Source: Arabidopsis thaliana (Eukaryota; Streptophyta; Magnoliopsida; Brassicales; Brassicaceae). From it: a stretch of 64,000 nucleotides of DNA. This document shows, one piece after another, positions 47,389 through 61,391 of the stretch (position 1 is its first letter; each line of letters opens with the position of its first letter). The notes below the pieces were generated by a model, which saw nothing but the letters and a program-made list of their open reading frames with translations, had not been told where the DNA came from and ran no database searches. The DNA is taken from contig NC_003071.7 in assembly GCF_000001735.4 (NCBI RefSeq), positions 19,009,443 to 19,073,442 on the forward strand, read 5' to 3'. The position numbers were made by a program, and so were the translations under genes.

Positions 47389-49029
47389 TCAAGCTTATGA
47401 TATTTGATCAATAGAAACAGTCTTATTATCTAGCAAGCAAGCATTGTTTGTGCCGTTTCTCTATATTAGAGAAAACCTCCCAAAAGGATTTAAAATCTTC
47501 TTCTTTTTTCCTCTTCTAAGGGTAATGATCGATCATAGATTCATAGACTTAGATTAATTGCTCAGTTGTTTGTTTATTGTACACCTTTATTTTGGGACTT
47601 TGCTAAGCATTGTATAATATCTCCCAATAATCTATTTTCTTGTTGGATAGTTCATCAATATGCATGGGAATATCTCATTTTTTTCCTTCTAATAAATACT
47701 CCCTATTATAGAAATCTATAAAAGTGTTCATAATTATAACTCGTGGAAATTAATTTGAGCTTTAAGGAATGATTGATATCTTTTTGTGAAACAAAAAATC
47801 ACAAAAAGAAAATCATTGATTTTTTTTTTTTTGGTTGGAAAATGATTGATTCTTTTGTTTTTTTGGGTAGGAAAATGATTGATTATTTTTGTAGAGGAGA
47901 AAATGACGTACTCTAAAATTCAGAAAAAAGAAATGACGTACGCCAAAAAAAGTATGAAAGTCTCTTCAAGACTAACCACTAAACACCAAACAAGATATAA
48001 TTTTCTTTTTTTTTTTTGTATGTGGAGTAGAAAAATCATTGATTTCGTATATAGGTAGACTAATCAACGTTTGTGGATTCAGAATTTCAAATACAAGTGT
48101 CCGTGAATTAAATCCAAGACCGTGAATGCATAAAAAAAACTAGGTCTATAAAGTGAAAAAAAATACAAATATTAAGGGAGTAACTGAGTCATCATAACTA
48201 TGAAAAATATGATTGTTTGTTATACATAAAAAAATTATGACCATACATATATATTTTCTTTTTAAAAATAATGAACATATTGAGGTAAATAAATAAACAA
48301 CAGATTAAAATATTATATATCATGGTAAGAACCACAACATATATATATAAGTTGAATTAGTAAATTAAAAATGTTGGATGGAATTTGCTCATTCACTAGA
48401 AAAATTATTTTCATATTTCGTCTCAAGAAAAACCAAATTGGAATTGTAATTTTTTTGGGTTGACTGACTCAGTCTTCGTCAAAAGTCAACTCAACTTTAT
48501 TCCCTTTCCAAAATTTATTATTATTGAAAACTTGTCTTTTTCATGTGTGTTCCAGGCTCGTTTCTTCTTCACTTAGTTTCAATTCAAAGTTGTACTAAAT
48601 CACTACTTCGCCAAAATTAGAACATCATTATCTTCGAGGGTCTCTTCTCTCTTCATACTACTTCAAGAAATAATTAAACCTTTTTTTCCCTTTTAATCTT
48701 TCCTGTCGGGAAGACTTTTAAGTACCATTTCTTTTCCGGGAAACAAATTCTCGAATAATCACAGAAAAATACCTTGGTTCACTTTTTTTACTGTATAGAT
48801 CGTCCATTGAAATCAAGGTTTTATTCTTTAAAACTTTGGTCTTTATTTCACAACTTCTTTGAACTTCAAATAGTTTAAAATTTACTCTGTTTCATCAAAT
48901 TACTCTGTTTCGTCAAATTACTCTGTTTTGTCAGCTTGCTCTTTTCTAAAACGTGGAAGTAAATAAAATTTTGACATAAGTATATTTTCTCCCACAGGTT
49001 CAAGAATCTGTGGAAGAAAACAATCAGCG
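47389..49029. other. intergenic; CNGC3 promoter and leader
   Basis: AT-rich, no coding exon. It contains the 3' UTR of the upstream gene and an 18-bp x3 tandem repeat just before CNGC3 (48882-48935). The CNGC3 leader probably includes an intron ending with cag at about 48998. Confidence 0.5.
48882..48935 (+). repeat. three tandem copies of an 18-bp unit upstream of CNGC3
   Basis: Units ttactctgtttcatcaaa, ttactctgtttcgtcaaa and ttactctgttttgtcagc follow head to tail about 100-150 bp before the CNGC3 ATG. Present at CNGC3 only; CNGC11 and CNGC12 lack it. Confidence 0.8.
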
Positions 49030-51831
49030 ATGATGAATCCCCAAAGAAACAAATTCGTAAGGTTTGTATCAATTCTTCCTTTTGATTTAATAATTACGAT
49101 GTTATGAAGTGATCTTGATCTTGATTTATTGATCCAGGTTTAATGGAAATGATGATGAGTTTTCGACCAAAACTACTAGACCATCAGTATCTTCAGTTAT
49201 GAAAACCGTTAGACGAAGCTTCGAAAAGGGGTCAGAGAAAATCAGAACCTTTAAGCGGCCCTTAAGCGTTCATTCAAATAAGAATAAAGAAAATAATAAG
49301 AAGAAGAAGATACTAAGAGTGATGAATCCGAACGATTCATATCTTCAAAGCTGGAACAAGATTTTCTTGCTTCTCTCTGTTGTGGCTTTAGCCTTTGATC
49401 CTCTGTTTTTCTATATCCCCTATGTGAAGCCCGAGCGATTTTGTCTTAATCTAGACAAGAAACTCCAGACAATCGCTTGCGTTTTCCGCACTTTCATCGA
49501 CGCTTTCTATGTGGTTCACATGCTGTTTCAGTTTCATACCGGTTTCATCACTCCTTCTTCTAGTGGTTTCGGCAGAGGAGAGCTTAATGAGAAACATAAA
49601 GATATCGCTTTAAGATACCTCGGCTCATACTTTCTAATCGATCTTCTTTCGATTCTCCCTATTCCTCAGGTAACAATGTTTTCTCAAATCTGCTTTGCAA
49701 GATCTTGGTTGCATATCTAATGAATATGAAATACTATTTTTCTTTGCAATGACAGGTAGTTGTTCTAGCTATTGTTCCAAGGATGAGACGACCCGCGTCG
49801 CTAGTAGCAAAAGAGCTACTGAAATGGGTAATCTTTTGCCAATATGTTCCGAGGATAGCGAGAATCTATCCGCTTTTCAAGGAAGTAACAAGAACTTCTG
49901 GTTTGGTAACTGAAACTGCTTGGGCTGGTGCTGCTTTAAACCTATTCCTCTACATGTTAGCTAGCCATGTAAGAAAAGATTATTTTATTTGATTCTTTGC
50001 TCCACTTGATTAGGTTATGTTTGGGCAAAGATAACGGTTTTAACCATTGCGAAAAATGGACAGGTTTTTGGGTCTTTTTGGTACTTGATTTCGATAGAAA
50101 GGAAAGATAGATGTTGGCGTGAGGCGTGTGCTAAGATACAGAATTGCACTCATGCATACTTATACTGTTCACCAACAGGGGAAGACAATAGGTTATTTTT
50201 AAACGGTTCTTGTCCGTTGATCGATCCCGAAGAAATCACAAACTCGACGGTTTTCAACTTTGGTATATTCGCTGATGCATTGCAGTCTGGAGTTGTGGAG
50301 TCTAGAGATTTCCCTAAGAAGTTTTTCTACTGTTTCTGGTGGGGTCTCCGCAATCTTAGGTTTGTAACATCTAAAACTCTTACTTATTACGGTTCGGTTA
50401 CTTTTTGTTATCTAATCGATGAAATCTTATCTTTCTGTGTGTAGTGCTTTGGGCCAAAACTTGAAGACGAGTGCCTTTGAAGGAGAGATCATTTTTGCAA
50501 TAGTCATTTGTATTTCTGGACTAGTCTTGTTTGCTCTCCTCATTGGAAATATGCAGGTAATCATTTCTCTTCTCCTTTGAGCTCTTAAAACAAGGAATAT
50601 CCATATATATAGTCTTAAAGAGTTCTGTGATTTGTAGAAATATTTGCAATCAACTACTGTAAGAGTTGAGGAAATGAGAGTGAAAAGGAGAGATGCAGAG
50701 CAATGGATGTCTCATCGGATGTTGCCAGACGATCTGAGAAAACGTATCCGTAAATACGAACAGTATAAATGGCAAGAAACCAAAGGAGTTGAGGAAGAAG
50801 CTCTTCTCTCTAGTCTTCCAAAAGATCTCAGAAAGGACATTAAACGCCATCTTTGTCTCAAGTTGCTCAAAAAGGTAACCTTTTATTTTGTCCCATCATA
50901 ACTTCTTGAATTCACTGTTTTGTTTTGTTTCAGGTGCCTTGGTTCCAAGCTATGGATGATCGGTTACTAGATGCTCTATGTGCTCGTCTCAAAACGGTTC
51001 TTTATACAGAGAAGAGTTACATTGTGCGTGAAGGTGAACCAGTGGAGGATATGTTGTTTATAATGAGAGGAAATTTAATCAGCACCACTACTTATGGTGG
51101 CAGAACTGGTTTCTTCAATTCTGTTGACTTAGTTGCTGGTGATTTCTGTGGAGATCTTCTCACTTGGGCATTAGATCCTCTCAGTTCCCAATTCCCTATC
51201 TCTAGTAGAACCGTTCAAGCTTTGACAGAAGTCGAAGGCTTTCTTCTCTCAGCTGATGATCTCAAGTTTGTCGCTACTCAGTATCGTCGCCTCCATAGCA
51301 AGCAACTCCGACACATGTTCAGGTAATACTTTCAATTGAAAAAATGCATGTTGAGTTAATTATAAAAGTTAACATATTGGATAATGAGGACATATCGTAT
51401 ACCTATCTCGTTTCTCAAGTTTCCTTCAACATAATAACCCTAAATCTTTTTATTACCTACCTTGTATCTTGTTTCTCAAGTTACCTTTAATATTATAACC
51501 TAAACAACTTTTTGTCTCCAGGTTTTATTCAGTGCAATGGCAGACATGGGCAGCATGTTTTATACAAGCAGCATGGAAGAGACATTGTAGAAGGAAGCTC
51601 TCAAAGGCTTTACGTGAAGAAGAAGGCAAACTACATAACACTCTTCAGAACGATGATTCAGGAGGCAATAAACTTAACTTAGGTGCTGCGATTTATGCGT
51701 CGAGGTTTGCTTCTCATGCTCTGAGGAATCTAAGAGCAAATGCAGCAGCCCGAAATTCTAGATTCCCGCACATGTTAACTTTGTTGCCTCAGAAACCAGC
51801 CGATCCTGAGTTTCCTATGGATGAAACCTAG
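49030..51831 (+). CDS. CNGC3: cyclic nucleotide-gated channel 3
   Basis: Eight exons: 49030-49061, 49138-49669, 49756-49968, 50064-50359, 50445-50556, 50638-50874, 50934-51322, 51522-51831 (GT-AG), giving 706 aa. It is a plasma-membrane cation channel subunit with six TM helices: S1 near residues 86-105, pore helix and filter at about 353-367 with the plant GQN triplet (SALGQNLKTS; GQN at 361-363), then S6. The cytosolic part has a C-linker, a cyclic-nucleotide-binding domain (about 475-600, cassette GDFCGDLL) and an IQ calmodulin site (about 616-635, FIQAAWKRHCRRK). The long basic N-terminus (1-80) is absent from CNGC11/12. It is first of a three-gene tandem array. Matches At2g46430 in length. 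Confidence 0.97.
51323..51521 (+). repeat. CNGC3 intron 7 with internal tandem duplication
   Basis: Two related blocks, from about 51410 (cgtttctcaagtttcctt) and from about 51472 (tgtttctcaagttaccttt), repeat within the intron. The same duplication is present in CNGC11 intron 7 (54819-55005), so it predates or travelled with the copying between the two genes. Confidence 0.6.
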
Positions 51832-52639
51832 TTGTGTATATAGTTGTTGACTCTATCTCTATGTAATGTGATCGCTAGTATTTTTTGCAAATGATTATGT
51901 AACCAGTAAAGAGCTTTATGTGAAATAATCAATAGGAAAAATTCTTATAGAGTTTAGTTAAAAAATAATAATTAATGGAGACATTAATTTTAGCGAGAAT
52001 CTCACCACCACAACCACTGTAAATGTTTTGCTATCCAAAAACACTTTCTAAGTCCTAAGCTTTAAAAGCATCTCTCATTAAACAATTTTTCCACATAGTT
52101 AGGAGAGTTTACTAGCTAGAGACGGTAGACTTATCTCTCTATTGGTGGTCCAGCTTGGCTTCACTCTCTCGAATTGACGAGTTTAGTCTTATTACGACGA
52201 CTTTCAATTGGGTCTGTATTGACTAAAAGATGGCCAACTAAAATAATGATTTAAGTATATATTTGAAGATGGTACGAAATGGGCATGTTGTGAAAAGAAG
52301 ACAGGTAGAGAAATTGGATTTTGTGAATATTATTGTAAGTTGTAGGGCAAAGAGAGTGAGACTGCAGAGCCCCCACCGTAGACGACTTTACTGTCTCTTC
52401 AAGTCCATTTAGCTTACCACTCTGCATCCACATACATGAGTCTGTGTTAAAGCTGGAGAACATCGATTTGCCCACCATTTCTCACTGCCAAAGCCATACC
52501 CATATTTATTCTCTCTCGGTCTCTCTTCTCGGTCTCTCTTCTCAGTCTCTCACTCCCACAGCCTTTAGTTCGAGAAGACCGAAGGGGACTTCATTTTCTT
52601 GTACGGGAATTAAAATATTGAAGATTGACAGATAAAAAC
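51832..52639. other. CNGC3-CNGC11 spacer with CNGC11 promoter
   Basis: Similar in order and sequence to the CNGC11-CNGC12 spacer (55314-56402): both begin with gttgttgactctatctct and pass through ctattggtggtc near 52139/55839. Both end in a CT-repeat leader. This defines the duplication unit. The CNGC11 leader carries one more copy of ggtctctcttctc (52519-52544) than CNGC12. Confidence 0.6.
52519..52552 (+). repeat. CT-rich tandem repeat in CNGC11 leader
   Basis: ggtctctcttctc is present twice in tandem followed by the related agtctctcactc. The CNGC12 leader has a single copy (about 56291-56314). Confidence 0.7.
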
Positions 52640-55186
52640 ATGAATCTTCAGAGGAGAAAATTTGTTAGGTAGCTTCTTGGAATTTTTATGAACAAGTTTA
52701 ACATAGCTTCAATCTAGTATTTTTATATTTACTTTTGGCAGTAGTGATCATATCTTGTTGATACAGGCTTGATAGTACGGGAGTTGATGGAAAATTGAAA
52801 AGTGTTAGAGGACGCTTGAAGAAGGTTTACGGGAAGATGAAAACACTCGAAAACTGGAGGAAGACCGTCTTGTTAGCTTGCGTGGTTGCTTTGGCTATTG
52901 ATCCTTTGTTTCTGTTTATCCCTTTGATTGATTCTCAGAGATTTTGCTTCACTTTCGACAAGACACTTGTAGCAGTAGTTTGTGTCATTCGTACTTTTAT
53001 TGACACGTTCTATGTGATTCACATCATTTATTATCTTATAACCGAGACCATTGCTCCTCGTTCTCAAGCATCTTTGAGAGGCGAGATTGTCGTGCATTCT
53101 AAGGCTACACTGAAAACACGTCTCCTCTTTCACTTCATTGTTGACATTATCTCTGTTCTCCCCATTCCTCAGGTATTGTTCCCTTCGTTTGTGTGTGCAT
53201 GACATCTACTTTTCCATGCTTTTTATTAGAGATGTACATGCGTAATTATAGGTGGTGGTTCTCACTCTCATACCACTGTCTGCGTCGCTGGTGTCAGAGA
53301 GAATACTGAAATGGATTATACTTAGTCAATATGTACCAAGAATCATTCGTATGTATCCGCTTTATAAAGAAGTGACAAGAGCCTTTGGTACGGTAGCAGA
53401 ATCAAAGCGGGTCGGAGCTGCTTTAAACTTCTTCCTTTACATGCTGCACAGTTATGTAAGTCTTTGCTCTTGATCCCACTTCCCACCCACTGTTGGTGTT
53501 GTTGTTGTTGCAACTGTGCATGATGGATGGCTACTATATGTATATAGGTGTGTGGGGCTTTTTGGTATTTGAGTTCAATAGAAAGGAAAAGCACATGTTG
53601 GCGTGCCGCGTGTGCTAGGACATCCGACTGCAATCTCACGGTCACGGATCTGCTTTGTAAACGAGCTGGTAGTGACAACATTCGTTTTCTCAACACCTCA
53701 TGCCCATTAATCGACCCTGCCCAAATCACAAACTCCACAGACTTCGACTTTGGTATGTATATTGATGCGTTGAAGTCAGGGGTCCTAGAGGTGAAACCAA
53801 AGGATTTTCCCAGGAAATTCGTCTATTGCTTTTGGTGGGGTCTCCGTAATATTAGGTACTAAATTGTATTATGCTAAACTCTCTGCCGTGAGACATATAT
53901 CAATCCACTTGATAGATTAATCCGCTCTACAGTGCTTTGGGCCAAAACCTGGAGACAAGCAACTCTGCAGGGGAGATTTTCTTTGCTATCATCATATGTG
54001 TCTCTGGTTTACTCTTGTTTGCTGTGCTCATTGGAAACGTTCAGGTAATGTTCATACCTTAGAACTAGAGTTTGATCTCATAAAGCTGATTCTTAATAGA
54101 TGTTTGTTTTTGGTGATCGCAGAAGTACTTGCAATCATCTACGACTAGAGTAGATGAAATGGAAGAGAAAAAGAGAGACACAGAAAAATGGATGTCCTAT
54201 CGGGAGATACCAGAGTATTTGAAGGAACGCATTAGGAGATTTGAAGATTACAAATGGAGAAGAACCAAAGGCACCGAAGAGGAAGCTCTTCTTCGTAGTC
54301 TTCCAAAAGACCTCAGACTCGAAACCAAACGCTATCTTTTTCTCAAGTTGCTCAAAAAGGTAACCTTTTATTTTGTCCCATCATAACTTAACCAACTCCT
54401 CTTGAATTCACTGTTTTGTTTTGTTTCAGGTGCCTTTGCTCCAAGCTATGGATGATCAGTTACTAGATGCTCTATGTGCTCGTCTCAAAACGGTTCATTA
54501 TACAGAGAAGAGTTACATTGTGCGTGAAGGTGAACCAGTGGAGGATATGTTGTTTATAATGAGAGGAAATTTAATCAGCACCACTACTTATGGTGGCAGA
54601 ACTGGTTTCTTCAATTCTGTTGACTTAATTGCTGGTGATTCCTGTGGAGATCTTCTCACTTGGGCATTATATTCTCTTAGTTCCCAGTTCCCTATCTCTA
54701 GTAGAACCGTTCAAGCGTTGACAGAAGTCGAAGGCTTTGTTATCTCAGCTGATGATCTCAAGTTTGTCGCTACTCAGTATCGTCGCCTCCATAGCAAGCA
54801 ACTCCAACACATGTTCAGGTAATATTTTCAATTGAAAAAATGCATGTTGAGTTAATCATATTGGATAATGATGACATATCGTATACCTATCTCGTTTCTC
54901 AAGTTACCTTCAACATAATAACCCAAAATCTTTTTATCACCTACCTTGTATCTTGTTTCTCAAGTTACCTTTAATATTATAATCTAAACAACTTTTTGTC
55001 TCCAGGTTTTATTCATTGCAATGGCAGACATGGGCAGCATGTTTTATACAAGCAGCATGGAAGAGACATTGTAGAAGGAAGCTCTCAAAGGCTTTACGTG
55101 AAGAAGAAGGCAAACTACATAACACTCTTCAGAACGATGATTCAGGAGGCAATAAACTTAACTTAGGTGCTGCGATTTATGCGTAG
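52640..55186 (+). CDS. CNGC11: cyclic nucleotide-gated channel 11
   Basis: Eight exons: 52640-52668, 52767-53172, 53252-53455, 53548-53855, 53933-54044, 54123-54359, 54430-54818, 55006-55186 (GT-AG), giving 621 aa. Architecture as CNGC3 but with a short N-terminus. The filter GQN is at about 319-321, the CNBD at about 433-560 with cassette GDSCGDLL, and an IQ motif near 575. Exons 1-6 and their introns are nearly identical to CNGC12, while the end of exon 6 onward is nearly identical to CNGC3. The last exon ends at a TAG where CNGC3 has TCG, shortening the tail by 43 residues; a second in-frame TAG follows at 55292. Trp of the AWAGAALN motif is Arg198. Role: immunity-linked cation channel (the cpr22 locus, established). 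Matches At2g46440. Confidence 0.96.
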
Positions 55187-56402
55187 AGGTTTGCTTCTCA
55201 TGCTCTGAGGAATCTAAGAGCAAATGCAGCAGCCCGAAATTCTAGATTCCCACACATGTTAATTTTGTTGCCTCAGAAACCAGCCGATCCTTAGTTTCCT
55301 ATGGATGAAACCTAGTTTTGTATAGTTGTTGACTCTATCTCTCTGTAATGTGATCGCTAGTGATTTCTTGCAAATAACTTTTGTGTAAACCAGTAAAGAT
55401 ATTTTTATGTGAAATAATAATCAATAGGAAAATTTCTTATAGAGTTTAGTAAAAAAACAATTTTAATGGAGACGTTTTAGCGAATACTCACCACCTCAAC
55501 CACTGTAAATGTTTTGTTATCCAAAAACTTCTAATTCCTAAGCTTTTAACTTTTAAAGCATCTCTCGTTAAACAATTTGTATTTTTTTGCAAAACAAAAA
55601 TAAAACGCTGTATTTTTAAATTAGAATCCTTAAGGTTGGGTATTTTTAAGTGAATCAAAAATTCCAACCAAAGTAATGGAACTAAATAACTGTTTTTTAT
55701 TAGAAAACTGAATACGTACATATACCAAAGTACATAATAAAACTAGTTCTATTATTGATATATATAAATTAAACACAGATTTAGATTATATTTAAACACA
55801 TAGCTAAGATTGTTTACTAGAGAGACTTAATTAGGTCTCTCTATTGGTGGTCTAGCTTGGCTTCACTCTCGAATTGAAGAGGAACAACGTGTTTGTTTAG
55901 TCTTTTTAGGACTTACAATTACGTCTCTGTTGTTTAGTAACGATGGCAAATAAAAATAATGATTTAGTATATTTGAACATGGTCCCAAATGGGCAAGTTG
56001 TAAAAAGAAGACAAGTAGAGAAAATTCAAAATTGGATTTCGTGGATATTATTGTAAGTTGCAGGGAAAAAAGAGTGAGACTGCCCCACCGTAGACTAAAA
56101 TGATTTAGCTTACCACTCTCACTCTGCATCCACAGTTTAATAATTACCCCTTTAATATTTTAATCATTATTTTAGTAGACCAAAACTGTTTAGTGTTGAA
56201 ACTTGTGCATCCACATGAGTGTTGGTTAAAGGTTGAGAACATCGATTTGCCAACCATATCTCACAGCCACAGCCATTTTTATTCTCTCTCGGTCTCTCTT
56301 CTCAGTCTCTCACTACCACAGCCTTAAGTTCGAGAAGACCGAAGTGGACTTCATTTTCTTGTACGGGAATTAAAATATTGCAGATTGACGACATATACTA
56401 AC
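55187..56402. other. CNGC11 3' remnant and CNGC12 promoter
   Basis: 55187-55315 still aligns codon by codon with the CNGC3 tail and would encode it but for two stop codons, so it is former coding sequence, now 3' UTR. Beyond it is the CNGC12 promoter, a diverged copy of the CNGC11 promoter, with insertions near 55580-55800. Confidence 0.7.
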
Positions 56403-58922
56403 ATGAATCATCGGAGGAGTAAATTTGCCAGGTACTTCTTCGAAGTTTTGATTAACTACTATTTCATATTTGGTTGTGATAGTGATCATTGTTGATACAG
56501 GATAGATAGTATGGGAGTTGATGGAAAATTGAAAAGTGTTAGAGGACGCTTGAAGAAGGTTTACGGGAAGATGAAAACACTCGAAAACTGGAGGAAGACC
56601 GTCTTGTTAGCTTGCGTGGTTGCTTTGGCTATTGATCCTTTGTTTCTGTTTATCCCTTTGATTGATTCTCAGAGATTTTGCTTCACTTTCGACAAGACAC
56701 TTGTAGCAGTAGTTTGTGTCATTCGTACTTTTATTGACACGTTCTATGTGATTCACATCATTTATTATCTTATAACCGAGACCATTGCTCCTCGTTCTCA
56801 AGCATCTTTGAGAGGCGAGATTGTCGTGCATTCTAAGGCTACACTGAAAACACGTCTCCTCTTTCACTTCATTGTTGACATTATCTCTGTTCTCCCCATT
56901 CCTCAGGTATTGTTCCCTTCGTTTGTGTGTGCATGACATCTACTTTTCCATGCTTTTTATTAGAGATGTACATGCGTAATTATAGGTGGTGGTTCTCACT
57001 CTCATACCACTGTCTGCGTCGCTGGTGTCAGAGAGAATACTGAAATGGATTATACTTAGTCAATATGTACCAAGAATCATTCGTATGTATCCGCTTTATA
57101 AAGAAGTGACAAGAGCCTTTGGTACGGTAGCAGAATCAAAGTGGGCTGGAGCTGCTTTAAACTTATTCCTTTACATGCTGCACAGTTATGTAAGTCTTTG
57201 CTCTTGATCCCACTTCCCACCCACTGTTGTTGTTGTTGATGGATGGCTACTATGTATATAGGTGTTTGGGGCTTTTTGGTACTTGAGTTCAATAGAAAGG
57301 AAAAGCAAATGTTGGCGTGCCGCGTGTGCTAGGACATCCGACTGCAATCTCACGGTCACGGATCTGCTTTGTAAACGAGCTGGCAGTGACAACATTCGAT
57401 TCCTCAACACTTCATGCCCATTAATCGACCCTGCCCAAATCACAAACTCCACAGACTTCGACTTTGGTATGTATATTGATGCATTGAAGTCAGGGGTGCT
57501 AGAGGTGAAACCAAAGGATTTTCCCAGGAAATTCGTCTATTGCTTTTGGTGGGGTCTCCGTAATATTAGGTAATAAATTGTATTATGCTAAACTCTCTGC
57601 CGTGAGATCTGACGACTGACCCATAGTAAGACATATATCAATCCATTTGTTAGATTAATCCACTCTACAGTGCTTTGGGCCAAAACCTGGAGACAAGCAA
57701 CTCTGCAGGGGAGATTTTCTTTGCTATCATCATATGTGTCTCTGGTTTACTCTTGTTTGCTGTGCTCATTGGAAACGTTCAGGTAATGTTCATACCTTAG
57801 AACTAGAGTTTGATCTCATAAAGCTGATTCTTAATAGATGTTTGTTTTTGGTGATCACAGAAGTACTTGCAATCATCTACTACTAGAGTAGATGAAATGG
57901 AGGAGAAAAGGAGAGACACAGAAAAATGGATGTCCTACCGGGTGATACCAGAGTATTTGAAGGAACGCATTAGGAGATTTGAAGATTACAAATGGCGAGA
58001 AACCAAGGGAACCGAAGAGGAAGCTCTTCTTCGTAGTCTTCCAAAAGACCTCAGACTCGAAACCAAACGCTATCTTTACTTGGATATGTTAAAGCGTGTA
58101 AGCTAGCTCCCTTTTCGTCATTTATCCGTGTATCGCAAGAAATATAATAGTTGTCAACTTATAGCTTTTTCACCTCTCAGGTTCCATGGCTTAACATCAT
58201 GGATGATGGTTGGCTACTAGAAGCTGTGTGCGACCGGGTGAAGTCTGTGTTCTATTTAGCGAACAGCTTCATAGTGAGAGAGGGGCACCCAGTTGAGGAG
58301 ATGCTGATTGTAACGAGAGGCAAGCTGAAAAGTACAACCGGATCTCATGAAATGGGTGTCCGCAACAATTGTTGTGACCTCCAAGATGGTGACATATGTG
58401 GAGAACTTCTCTTCAATGGTTCTCGCCTTCCTACCTCAACCAGAACCGTAATGACTTTGACTGAAGTTGAAGGTTTCATTCTCTTGCCTGATGATATCAA
58501 GTTTATAGCTTCTCATTTAAATGTCTTTCAAAGACAAAAACTCCAACGAACATTCAGGCAAGCTTCGAAACCAAAGTAGCAGCTGAGATTTTTTTACTAC
58601 CTTAAACAAGCTGCAATGCAAGACTTAAACAAACCATTTTTTCAGGTTATACTCACAGCAATGGCGCTCATGGGCAGCATTCTTCATTCAAGCGGCATGG
58701 AGGAAACATTGCAAAAGGAAGCTTTCTAAGACAAGAGACAACGAGAATATTCCACAAGGCACGCAACTCAATCTTGCATCAACGCTCTACGTGTCCAGAT
58801 TTGTGTCCAAAGCTTTGCAAAATCGACGAAAAGATACAGCAGATTGTTCCAGCTCTCCTGATATGTCACCTCCGGTACCTCATAAACCAGCCGATCTCGA
58901 GTTTGCAAAGGCTGAAGCATAG
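56403..58922 (+). CDS. CNGC12: cyclic nucleotide-gated channel 12
   Basis: Eight exons: 56403-56431, 56501-56906, 56986-57189, 57262-57569, 57671-57782, 57861-58097, 58181-58557, 58646-58922, giving 649 aa, the expected length. Short N-terminus, six TM helices, GQN filter, CNBD (from about 433; cassette GDICGELL) and IQ region (FIQAAWRKHCKRK). The final intron uses a GC donor (AG|GCAAGC at 58558), unlike the GT in CNGC3 and CNGC11. If unspliced, the frame stops at 58579 and the protein (564 aa) lacks the IQ domain. The tail, ending LEFAKAEA, is unlike CNGC3. With CNGC11 it is the gene fused in the cpr22 defence mutant (established). Matches At2g46450. Confidence 0.96.
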
Positions 58923-59577
58923 TGTGTCTTTGAAGGAAAATGACTCTCTACACAAACAAGGTAGTGAAGACTCCATGTAAGCTCAAAACATGCCCTACAA
59001 CGTAACTTTCCAGTTATTGTCAAATAATTGACTCATCACCACGTCCTAGATATAAAAAAAAACAGTAAGAAAACAAGATCATTCCAAAAAACCAAGTGAG
59101 GCACTTGATGAGCTCTAAATATATAAATATGTAGTACCGATGTTTTTGTTTGGCGCCGCATGCAAGTAATTCCAGTCCTAAACTCGACTTGTTCATGAGT
59201 CTCAAGTAGGACCAAGTTTGCGAGGTAAGGAGATATAACAAAAATGTCTTGAGAGAGGCTTTGGAGTTTGTTCTCTTCTTTTTACAGAATTTTTATGAAC
59301 TCTCAAGGACTTTCGATAGGTTTCTTCTCCCTTCTTGCATGGTGCAAGTAACGCTTGTTGTTGAATTTGGATATCAATGGGAGGCTTAATCCTTGTTGAG
59401 TCAGGTTCAGTTTCCATTTTTTTTTAATAAATAAGTTAGGGTAATTTGACGAAAATAGAAAAACTAACAAGAAGTTGTACATGAAACAGAGTATTCTTTT
59501 GACAAAAAGAAACAGAGTATTCAAGTCAAATTTGATTCAAAGACAAAAACAGAGAGACTAATAAAGCAAAAGAAGAT

Positions 59578-61391
59578 TCACTTCTTGTCTTTCTTCTTCA
59601 CCACGTCAATAAATTCTCTCATCAGACTTATCAATCTCGCTATGATCCTTTGCTGCTCAGAGACCGTTGTTACTGTAATATCTGGCCACCCCAGGATGCT
59701 TCTCAACTTTACTATCTGATTGGACCTCAACACTATTTGAGTGGAAAAAAGTGTTTTAGATTGAACGAGAGAGAGACATAAAAAAAGAAGGAAGATATAT
59801 TGTGAGTTTATCTACAGAGAGAGAGATAGAGGGACTTACTCAGGTATAATGTGGATACATAGATTCTAGATGTGATCATGTAAAAGTACATTGCCTGCAG
59901 AAACAGAAAACTGAGACATATCACTACTAGATTCAAGACAATGTTTAAGATCAAAGCTCAAAAAAAAGGTCCAGCTTTACCGGTTCAAATTTAAAGGTAG
60001 CTTGGAGCACAACAAAGATAATGGGAAATATAGCAAGTCTCTTCATGCTCGATAAAAGATTTGCCCGCTGATTGTGGACCTATCATAAATTGAAATTAAA
60101 AAAAATATCAAATTTAGTTTGGATTATGTATCAAACAACATTTCTGTTTTTTTTTTTTTACTCTGAACACTATATTAAAGAAATCTTTAGACCTCTGATG
60201 AGAACCAGAAAGTGAAGCCTGCCAGTATAGGCAAGATGTATAGGCTGTCTGGAGTTAAAAGTTCAGGGATTTTCTTAGCCATGGTCGTTATCTGTTTCCA
60301 ACGTAGACAAGGAGTCAATAAGCAAGAGTCAAAACAGTAGAGCCAAAGAAACATTATCTTTTAGTTTTACCCCACTCATGAAGCTGATGTAGACGAATGC
60401 ATCAGGAACAAGTAGAGCAAAGTAATGCAAGCAACCGTCTTCGAATCTGGTGTGATAATTAATCCATAGAGAATAAGTTAAAGCAAGTCAGAGAGAGACA
60501 TGATATTGTGTAAGAAAACTCGCCTTTTCGTCAACTCCGCTTCCCATTTTCTGTATTTAGCTAGAGTTTCACGATTACCTGAAATCACGAGACTGTGCTC
60601 AGCTATGTTTGACGAGATTTCAAAAGAGCTAATAAGGACTATGTACCTTTTTAATTCTCTTCACGTTCTCCATGGACCTAATCAGACTCTAGTATACAAA
60701 ATGTAGAATTATGTAAAAGTTCAAAAAGCAACAAGATTTAGGAACAAAAGGATAAACCTGCAAAAGAAACTAACTTGTAGCTCCAGAGCTAGATTCTGAA
60801 CCCGCATAGAGACTGGTGACATCAGTACAGTAACAAGAAAAGCTGTAAGAACAATTGACATCCACCTATAATACATACAAGATTAGAAACTAATCACTGA
60901 ACAAAAACCTTAAGAAACCATCAAGCAATAACAAACACAAAGTCCAACCAATATAATCAATGTTACCAATTGAAGCCAGTGAGCTCGTGGATTCCATTAA
61001 TCACATACTGCACGAATCCCTCAGGGGAAAAAACACTCTCAGTTATAGCAGTACACTCATCTATAGTGGCGACATTAGTGACAATTGCTTCCACAGATTC
61101 TTCAACAACATTTCCAAAAGCATCAATCTTTGAACACAATTCTTCTGGTTTAGAAGACATCTGTCTACATAGCGATACTCCAGAAAACCCCACTAATTGA
61201 ACAAAAGACATTTTCCTTGTATCTTCAAAGAAAACATGCCTGTGAAAGCTACGAATCAGAAGACTTGAATCTGGGAAAGTGGGTTCAGTAAAATCTTTGA
61301 TATGATGATGAAGAACAACAGGTCTTGAGGTCATGTAGCATAACAAATTTGGGTAAAGACTTCTCCTTGATAAGCTACGAAGACAGGCCAT
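59578..61391 (-). CDS. OXA1/YidC-like membrane insertase
   Basis: Nine exons on minus: 60967-61391, 60775-60865, 60647-60688, 60524-60597 (start uncertain), 60371-60446, 60193-60291, 59981-60079, 59840-59894, 59578-59732; about 371 aa in an open frame. The N-terminus is basic and Ser/Arg-rich (MACLRSLSRRSLYPNL), a typical mitochondrial presequence. The first junction (GFNW|W) and following membrane helix (MSIVLTAFLVTVLMSPVSM) parallel the OXA gene at 63217. The core has LTPDSLYILPILAGFTFW, as in OXA1/YidC, which insert proteins into the inner membrane. It is diverged from the neighbour, and exon 4 has a weak acceptor and a GC donor. It may be less conserved or partly degraded. Probably At2g46455. 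Confidence 0.75.

Follow-up and report, generated by a model that had tools for sequence, protein, structure and literature searches.

How did the middle one of three tandem channel genes come to resemble one neighbor in its front and the other in its back, and what has become of it since? The question is raised by a 64,000-nucleotide stretch of Arabidopsis thaliana DNA (hereinafter the window), which lies on contig C2 of the 119.7-Mb genome that we searched. Models built from splice sites yield three genes in it, which carry the Arabidopsis thaliana names CNGC3, CNGC11 and CNGC12:

49030..51831, plus strand: CNGC3 (splice model), 8 exons, 706 aa; proposed parent of the back half
52640..55186, plus strand: CNGC11 (splice model and mosaic analysis), 8 exons, 621 aa; the mosaic gene
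56403..58922, plus strand: CNGC12 (splice model), 8 exons, 649 aa; proposed parent of the front half

A breakpoint within exon 6 of CNGC11

Exons 1–6 have equal lengths in the CNGC11 and CNGC12 models, with exons 2–6 of the two genes offset by 3714–3738 bp. CNGC12 intron 7 (58558-58645) is of the GC-AG type, the other 20 introns of the three models being GT-AG. We take the family to which CNGC11 belongs to be plant CNGC group I: its top match among solved structures is the plant channel CNGC1 (9j34, E 1.4e-214, residues 36-621), it clusters in trees with the set of CNGC1, CNGC10 and CNGC13, and its nearest relatives are CNGC1, CNGC3, CNGC10, CNGC12 and CNGC13. Pfam gives an Ion_trans match at residues 61-361 (33.9 bits, above the cut-off of 25) and a cNMP_binding match at residues 454-545, the latter with 22.9 bits, under the 27.5 cut-off; the alignment to the CNGC1 structure spans this stretch. 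CNGC11 has also been placed in group I in the literature (PMC6358908, in extract). Before the pore, at 53788-53808, CNGC11 and CNGC12 have the motif EVKPKDF, two residues longer than the ES-x-DF version of CNGC3, CNGC1, CNGC10 and CNGC13.

A first-pass annotation of the window had described CNGC11 as a gene with a CNGC12-like front and a CNGC3-like back, with a forecast breakpoint at 54330-54345, and both proposals are borne out. In a three-gene alignment we treated as informative those sites at which CNGC3 differs from CNGC12 and CNGC11 agrees with one of them (n = 940). A single breakpoint fits 910 of these 940 sites, which none of 2000 label shuffles did as well, with 575 CNGC12-like and 22 CNGC3-like sites before it and 335 CNGC3-like and 8 CNGC12-like sites after it. 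The last CNGC12-like site is 54333 and the first CNGC3-like site 54341, both in exon 6, while 16 of the 22 front exceptions are confined to exon 1, intron 1 and the first 12 nt of exon 2 (52650-52778). Between the two sites lies the junction:

54334..54340, plus strand: exon 6 junction; six bases that the three genes share, followed by one CNGC11-only base

The join is in frame at codons 424-426 of CNGC11, without insertion or loss, and falls between the Ion_trans and cNMP_binding matches, so that, as the annotation had proposed, a CNGC12-type pore part is joined to a CNGC3-type nucleotide- and calmodulin-binding part. Sliding identity in 100-column windows likewise reveals a change of closest paralog rather than uniform divergence: over 52825-54278 CNGC11 is 93–100% like CNGC12 and 48–71% like CNGC3, whereas over 54370-55348 it is 93–100% like CNGC3 and 53–67% like CNGC12. 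The closest paralog thus switches at one point, as it should in a mosaic produced by unequal crossing-over.

Phylogenetic analysis with CNGC1, CNGC10 and CNGC13 as outgroups gives opposite pairings for the two parts. The front tree unites CNGC11 with CNGC12 (100% bootstrap; alternatives with AU p below 1e-38), and the back tree unites CNGC11 with CNGC3 (98% bootstrap), rejecting CNGC11+CNGC12 at p = 0.002 and CNGC3+CNGC12 at p = 0.03. The outgroup models cannot be relied on in their first exons, nor can that of CNGC13 at its end; the codon and tree columns of the front begin at the LENW motif of CNGC11, and those of the back are trimmed only to the CNGC11 end. CNGC3 and CNGC12 are about equally distant in both parts (dS 1.305 in the front and 1.382 in the back); hence, the switch belongs to CNGC11, whose dS is 0.055 to CNGC12 in the front (0.103 outside the identical block described below) and 0.024 to CNGC3 in the back.

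A tandem unit with divergence in three segments

Two tandem copies exist of a unit that runs from the back half of CNGC3 across the spacer into the front half of CNGC12, with the same order of parts in each:

50856..54339, plus strand: tandem unit copy 1, from alignment to 54341-58077; CNGC3 back half, spacer, CNGC11 front
54341..58077, plus strand: tandem unit copy 2, from the same alignment; CNGC11 back, spacer, CNGC12 front

The repeat includes intergenic DNA and has its border at the switch point, as is expected of crossing-over. A genome search with the first spacer recovered the spacer itself and three pieces of the second one, with no further match reported by this search, which leaves out simple repeats and highly frequent words. 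The 3′ flank of CNGC3 (51832-52640) shows no likeness to that of CNGC12 (58923-60000; 78 of 200 shuffles score as high), and neither does the 5′ flank of CNGC12 (55800-56403) to that of CNGC3 (48100-49029; 83 of 200), whereas the 3′ flanks of CNGC3 and CNGC11, used as a positive control, score 679 against a shuffle maximum of 67. Given this strong control and the lack of likeness beyond chance between the CNGC3 and CNGC12 flanks, the spacer was copied together with the unit. A triplication of whole genes, which predicts similar flanks for CNGC3 and CNGC12, was rejected. The earlier statement that the 3′ flank of CNGC11 follows CNGC3 is correct, though at about 81–90% identity as against 97% in the gene part.

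The two spacers differ in further respects. About 211 bp of the CNGC11–CNGC12 spacer (55579-55789) have no counterpart in the CNGC3–CNGC11 spacer, reflecting either an insertion or a loss, and no second copy of the stretch was reported by the genome search, under the same exclusions; compared with the 5′ flank of CNGC3, the stretch scored somewhat higher (13 of 200 shuffles as high), which was not counted as a match. Directly upstream of the CNGC11 start, at 52501-52639, only 9 of 126 aligned sites differ from the CNGC12 side, as compared to 43 of 259 and 50 of 134 further upstream (52091-52500). This low divergence might reflect a 5′ leader common to both genes or a further patch of conversion.

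Segmentation over 3385 aligned positions of the tandem unit yields three segments, with divergences of 2.7% (50856-51883), 19.4% (51884-52778) and 1.9% (52779-54339). Together with their counterparts and the longest identical run, the relevant features are:

51884..52778, plus strand: diverged segment of copy 1 (segmentation); spacer, exon 1, intron 1 and first 12 nt of exon 2, with 161 differences in 830 aligned bases from copy 2
55367..56512, plus strand: diverged segment of copy 2 (segmentation); spacer, exon 1, intron 1 and first 12 nt of exon 2
52779..54339, plus strand: CNGC12-like front (segmentation); 29 differences in 1541 aligned bases
54341..55366, plus strand: CNGC3-like back (segmentation); 27 differences in 1014 aligned bases
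52779..53407, plus strand: block identical to CNGC12; 629 bp, from exon 2 through intron 2 into exon 3

The diverged segment of copy 1 is supported by independent genome-search matches of 75–82%. These boundaries qualify two earlier observations. CNGC11 had been said to almost equal CNGC12 in exons and introns up to about 54340, which is true from 52779 onward but not of the strongly diverged exon 1 (5/29) and intron 1 (21/69). Likewise, the 406-nt exon 2 and intron 2 had been described as apparently identical in the two genes; there are three differences in the first 12 nt of exon 2, after which 629 aligned bases are indeed identical, into exon 3. None of 20,000 shuffles of the front reaches such a run, and we read this block as the latest conversion tract.

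Leaving out intron 1, the introns show 12 differences in 552 sites, as against 134 in 770 for the spacer between the CNGC3 stop and the CNGC11 start (Fisher p = 2.7e-21), while the coding exon 1 is as diverged as the spacer. Thus, coding constraint cannot explain the contrast, and the low divergence of the gene halves, introns included, relative to the spacer points to their later homogenization by conversion. Both the identity run beyond chance and a heterogeneity of divergence beyond coding constraint are hallmarks of such conversion; the uniform divergence expected of a single crossing-over alone is not what the three segments display. Silent differences in the front outside the identical block (14/145) exceed those in the back (3/127, p = 0.02) as well as the differences in introns 3–5 (6/227, p = 0.0045). 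Accordingly, conversion has been patchy, and no single clock fits. A neutral rate of ~7e-9 per site and year would put the spacer (0.198) at roughly 14 million years and the back at roughly 2 million years.

Origin of the hybrid gene

The annotation had offered gene conversion or unequal crossing-over after duplication as the origin of the mosaic. The evidence points to both, with crossing-over itself being the duplication and conversion following it. The duplicated spacer, the three segments of divergence and the excess of changes in CNGC11 (see below) go beyond what the annotation had noted. We hold an unequal crossing-over that made a hybrid and an extra gene, followed by conversion of the halves, to be the best explanation and a probable one, because a crossing-over between CNGC3 and a CNGC12-like gene leaves just such a tandem repeat bordered at the switch point. 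We infer the order of events and the mechanism from one genome, as follows. The ancestral locus would have consisted of CNGC3 and, in tandem with it, a CNGC12-like gene. Chromatids might then have misaligned with the codon register kept, such that the CNGC12-like gene of one recombined with CNGC3 of the other, either in exon 6 or further down exons 6–8 with the border moved later. One unit, made up of the back half of CNGC3, the spacer and the front half of CNGC12, would thereby have been gained, and with it a new middle gene, CNGC11, combining a copy of the CNGC12-type promoter with a CNGC3-type 3′ end. Later conversion would have homogenized CNGC11 with CNGC12 in the front and with CNGC3 in the back, extending in each case only as far as the hybrid still matched its partner. 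The last front tract would be too recent for any difference to have arisen in it, and most new protein changes would then have accrued in CNGC11.

Gene conversion in tandem plant gene families gives rise to patchy tracts of low divergence. CNGC11 shares such tracts, including one identical block, but its conversion is split between two partners by the border of the hybrid. With chimeras from unequal crossing-over or non-allelic homologous recombination (PMC3449122, in extract) it has in common close paralogs in direct orientation, an in-frame join and a duplicated spacer; it departs from the standard case in that the join lies in sequence only ~70% alike and in that both halves, but not the spacer, were apparently rejuvenated by conversion. 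The identity of only ~70% between CNGC3 and CNGC12 around the join, with six shared bases at the join itself, counts against the preferred history, since recombination between paralogs is stated to require extensive identity (PMC3449122, in extract). A synteny table for Brassica rapa and B. oleracea lists counterparts of AtCNGC3, with no row for AtCNGC11 or AtCNGC12 in the portion considered (PMC8683401). This absence is weak evidence, because CNGC1, CNGC8 and CNGC10 are without counterparts in the same portion of the table.

An unlikely but not negligible alternative places the border of the duplication further down, in exon 7, exon 8 or the 3′ UTR: CNGC11 would have begun as a near-complete copy of CNGC12, and conversion by CNGC3 would later have replaced its back and set the border in exon 6. 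Such a history requires as many events as the preferred one, and the tract 54341-55366 is uniformly low in divergence (2.7%) with a sharp end, as befits a conversion tract. Yet a search of 55579-55789 and 56101-56200, the two counterpart-free stretches of the second spacer, for remnants of intron 7, exon 8 or the 3′ flank of CNGC12 gave nothing above chance (87 and 40 of 200 shuffles as high); moreover, the duplicated flank starts at the CNGC3 stop, so the border lies within the CNGC3-homologous exons or UTR anyway. Far less probable is a single recent unequal crossing-over without later conversion. While one such event would account for both the mosaic and the tandem unit, divergence in the spacer, exon 1 and intron 1 is seven to ten times that of the flanking gene parts, introns included, on which ground we reject it, barring a spacer mutation rate about eight times higher.

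Mis-assembly is a risk wherever tandem copies are nearly identical, and CNGC11 might have been fused with CNGC3 or CNGC12 sequence by the assembler. This is hardly credible in view of the 26 polarized changes that are specific to CNGC11 and lie to either side of the join (see below) and of the cloning and expression of a CNGC11 reading frame by others (PMC6749817, in extract). Practically no weight falls on three independent old genes kept similar by selection only: although the exons are presumably functional, introns 2–7 are about as similar as the exons, which refutes such maintenance, and the closest paralog switches inside one exon.

Changes in CNGC11 and the cpr22 deletion

Changes since homogenization were polarized with other group I genes, leaving aside residues 1-14 of CNGC11 because the N-termini of the outgroups are not dependable. 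Three changes, one of them protein-changing and two silent, could not be attributed to any one lineage. CNGC11 acquired 26 changes of any kind as compared to 10 in its partners (p = 0.011), an excess seen in the front (16 vs 5, p = 0.027) but not significant in the back alone (10 vs 5, p = 0.30). Protein-changing substitutions number 17 (in 15 codons) in CNGC11 against 4 in the partners (two-sided p = 0.007), namely 8 vs 0 in the front and 9 vs 4 in the back. The 8 changing and 8 silent changes of the CNGC11 front include fewer changing ones than the site make-up gives (p = 0.015); hence, the front is still constrained. The back, with 9 changing and 1 silent, does not depart from neutral proportions (p = 0.70), and we accordingly claim no positive selection on it. 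These counts suggest looser selection on CNGC11, not uniform along the gene, and any functional effect of the changes is likewise inferred.

Over the first 423 residues, 14 positions separate CNGC11 from CNGC12, 6 of which lie within residues 1-14. Four CNGC11 front changes lie at residues 198, 199, 205 and 215, in what we take to be the S5 region. Position 198 carries Arg in CNGC11, whereas each of the 19 further CNGC genes that we located in the genome encodes Trp there. The other end of the protein is shortened by a stop codon:

55184..55186, plus strand: CNGC11 stop (splice model); TAG where CNGC3 reads TCG

It cuts the tail 43 residues before the CNGC3 end, although the exon 8 frame, taken whole and also past the stop, retains 96% likeness to CNGC3 across 102 aa and contains two in-frame TAG codons. 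In oocytes CNGC12 gives a current and CNGC11 none, and in the same report CNGC11 neither affects the CNGC12 current nor interacts with CNGC12 (PMC6749817, in extract). Its complementation of yeast uptake mutants, listed in a review table (PMC7830781, in extract), and the lower heavy-metal content of cngc11 lines (PMC6358908, in extract) argue against a dead channel.

The cpr22 mutation is a 3 kb deletion fusing CNGC11 and CNGC12 (PMC4311611, PMC8147489, both in extract). It shares with CNGC11 the locus and the joining of tandem paralogs into a hybrid channel gene, plausibly by the same kind of process, but cpr22 is a deletion mutant whereas CNGC11 is a naturally occurring hybrid that goes with a duplication instead. 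If the CNGC11 and CNGC12 fronts exchanged in register within exons 2–6, the 3714–3738 bp of their offset would be deleted and a two-gene locus left. With exons 1–6 equal in length and so few residue differences, the resulting fusion would therefore have 649 aa and be nearly CNGC12. The comparison suggests that the autoimmune cpr22 fusion may mirror, as a deletion, the event from which CNGC11 arose. If it is such an in-register fusion, the promoter, the dose or a few residues, and not mixed halves, may cause the phenotype; overexpression of CNGC12 is reported to suppress cpr22 (PMC7830781, in extract), which fits poorly with “simply more CNGC12”.

Taking these strands jointly, one may speculate, with the whole chain being improbable as it stands, that CNGC11 is a natural, electrically silent hybrid subunit retained as a regulatory partner of CNGC3-type channels. 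Its CNGC12-type membrane part would be disabled by CNGC11-only changes, Trp198Arg foremost, and its CNGC3-type ligand and calmodulin module would lack the last 43 CNGC3 residues. The locus would alternate between two- and three-gene states, with cpr22-like fusions as a recurrent deletion product encoding roughly a CNGC12 protein under the CNGC11 promoter.

A literature search, with the primary cpr22 and CNGC12 papers outside its scope, found no description of CNGC11 as a CNGC12/CNGC3 mosaic, nor any paper combining “gene conversion” with two of the three gene names. Events of this type are well known, and the present case is a clean one that is useful for a much-studied immune locus. It means that no single position in family trees is right for CNGC11. 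The mosaic also offers a reason for the differing behavior of CNGC11 and CNGC12 despite their near-identical membrane parts, and Trp198Arg could account for the missing CNGC11 current.
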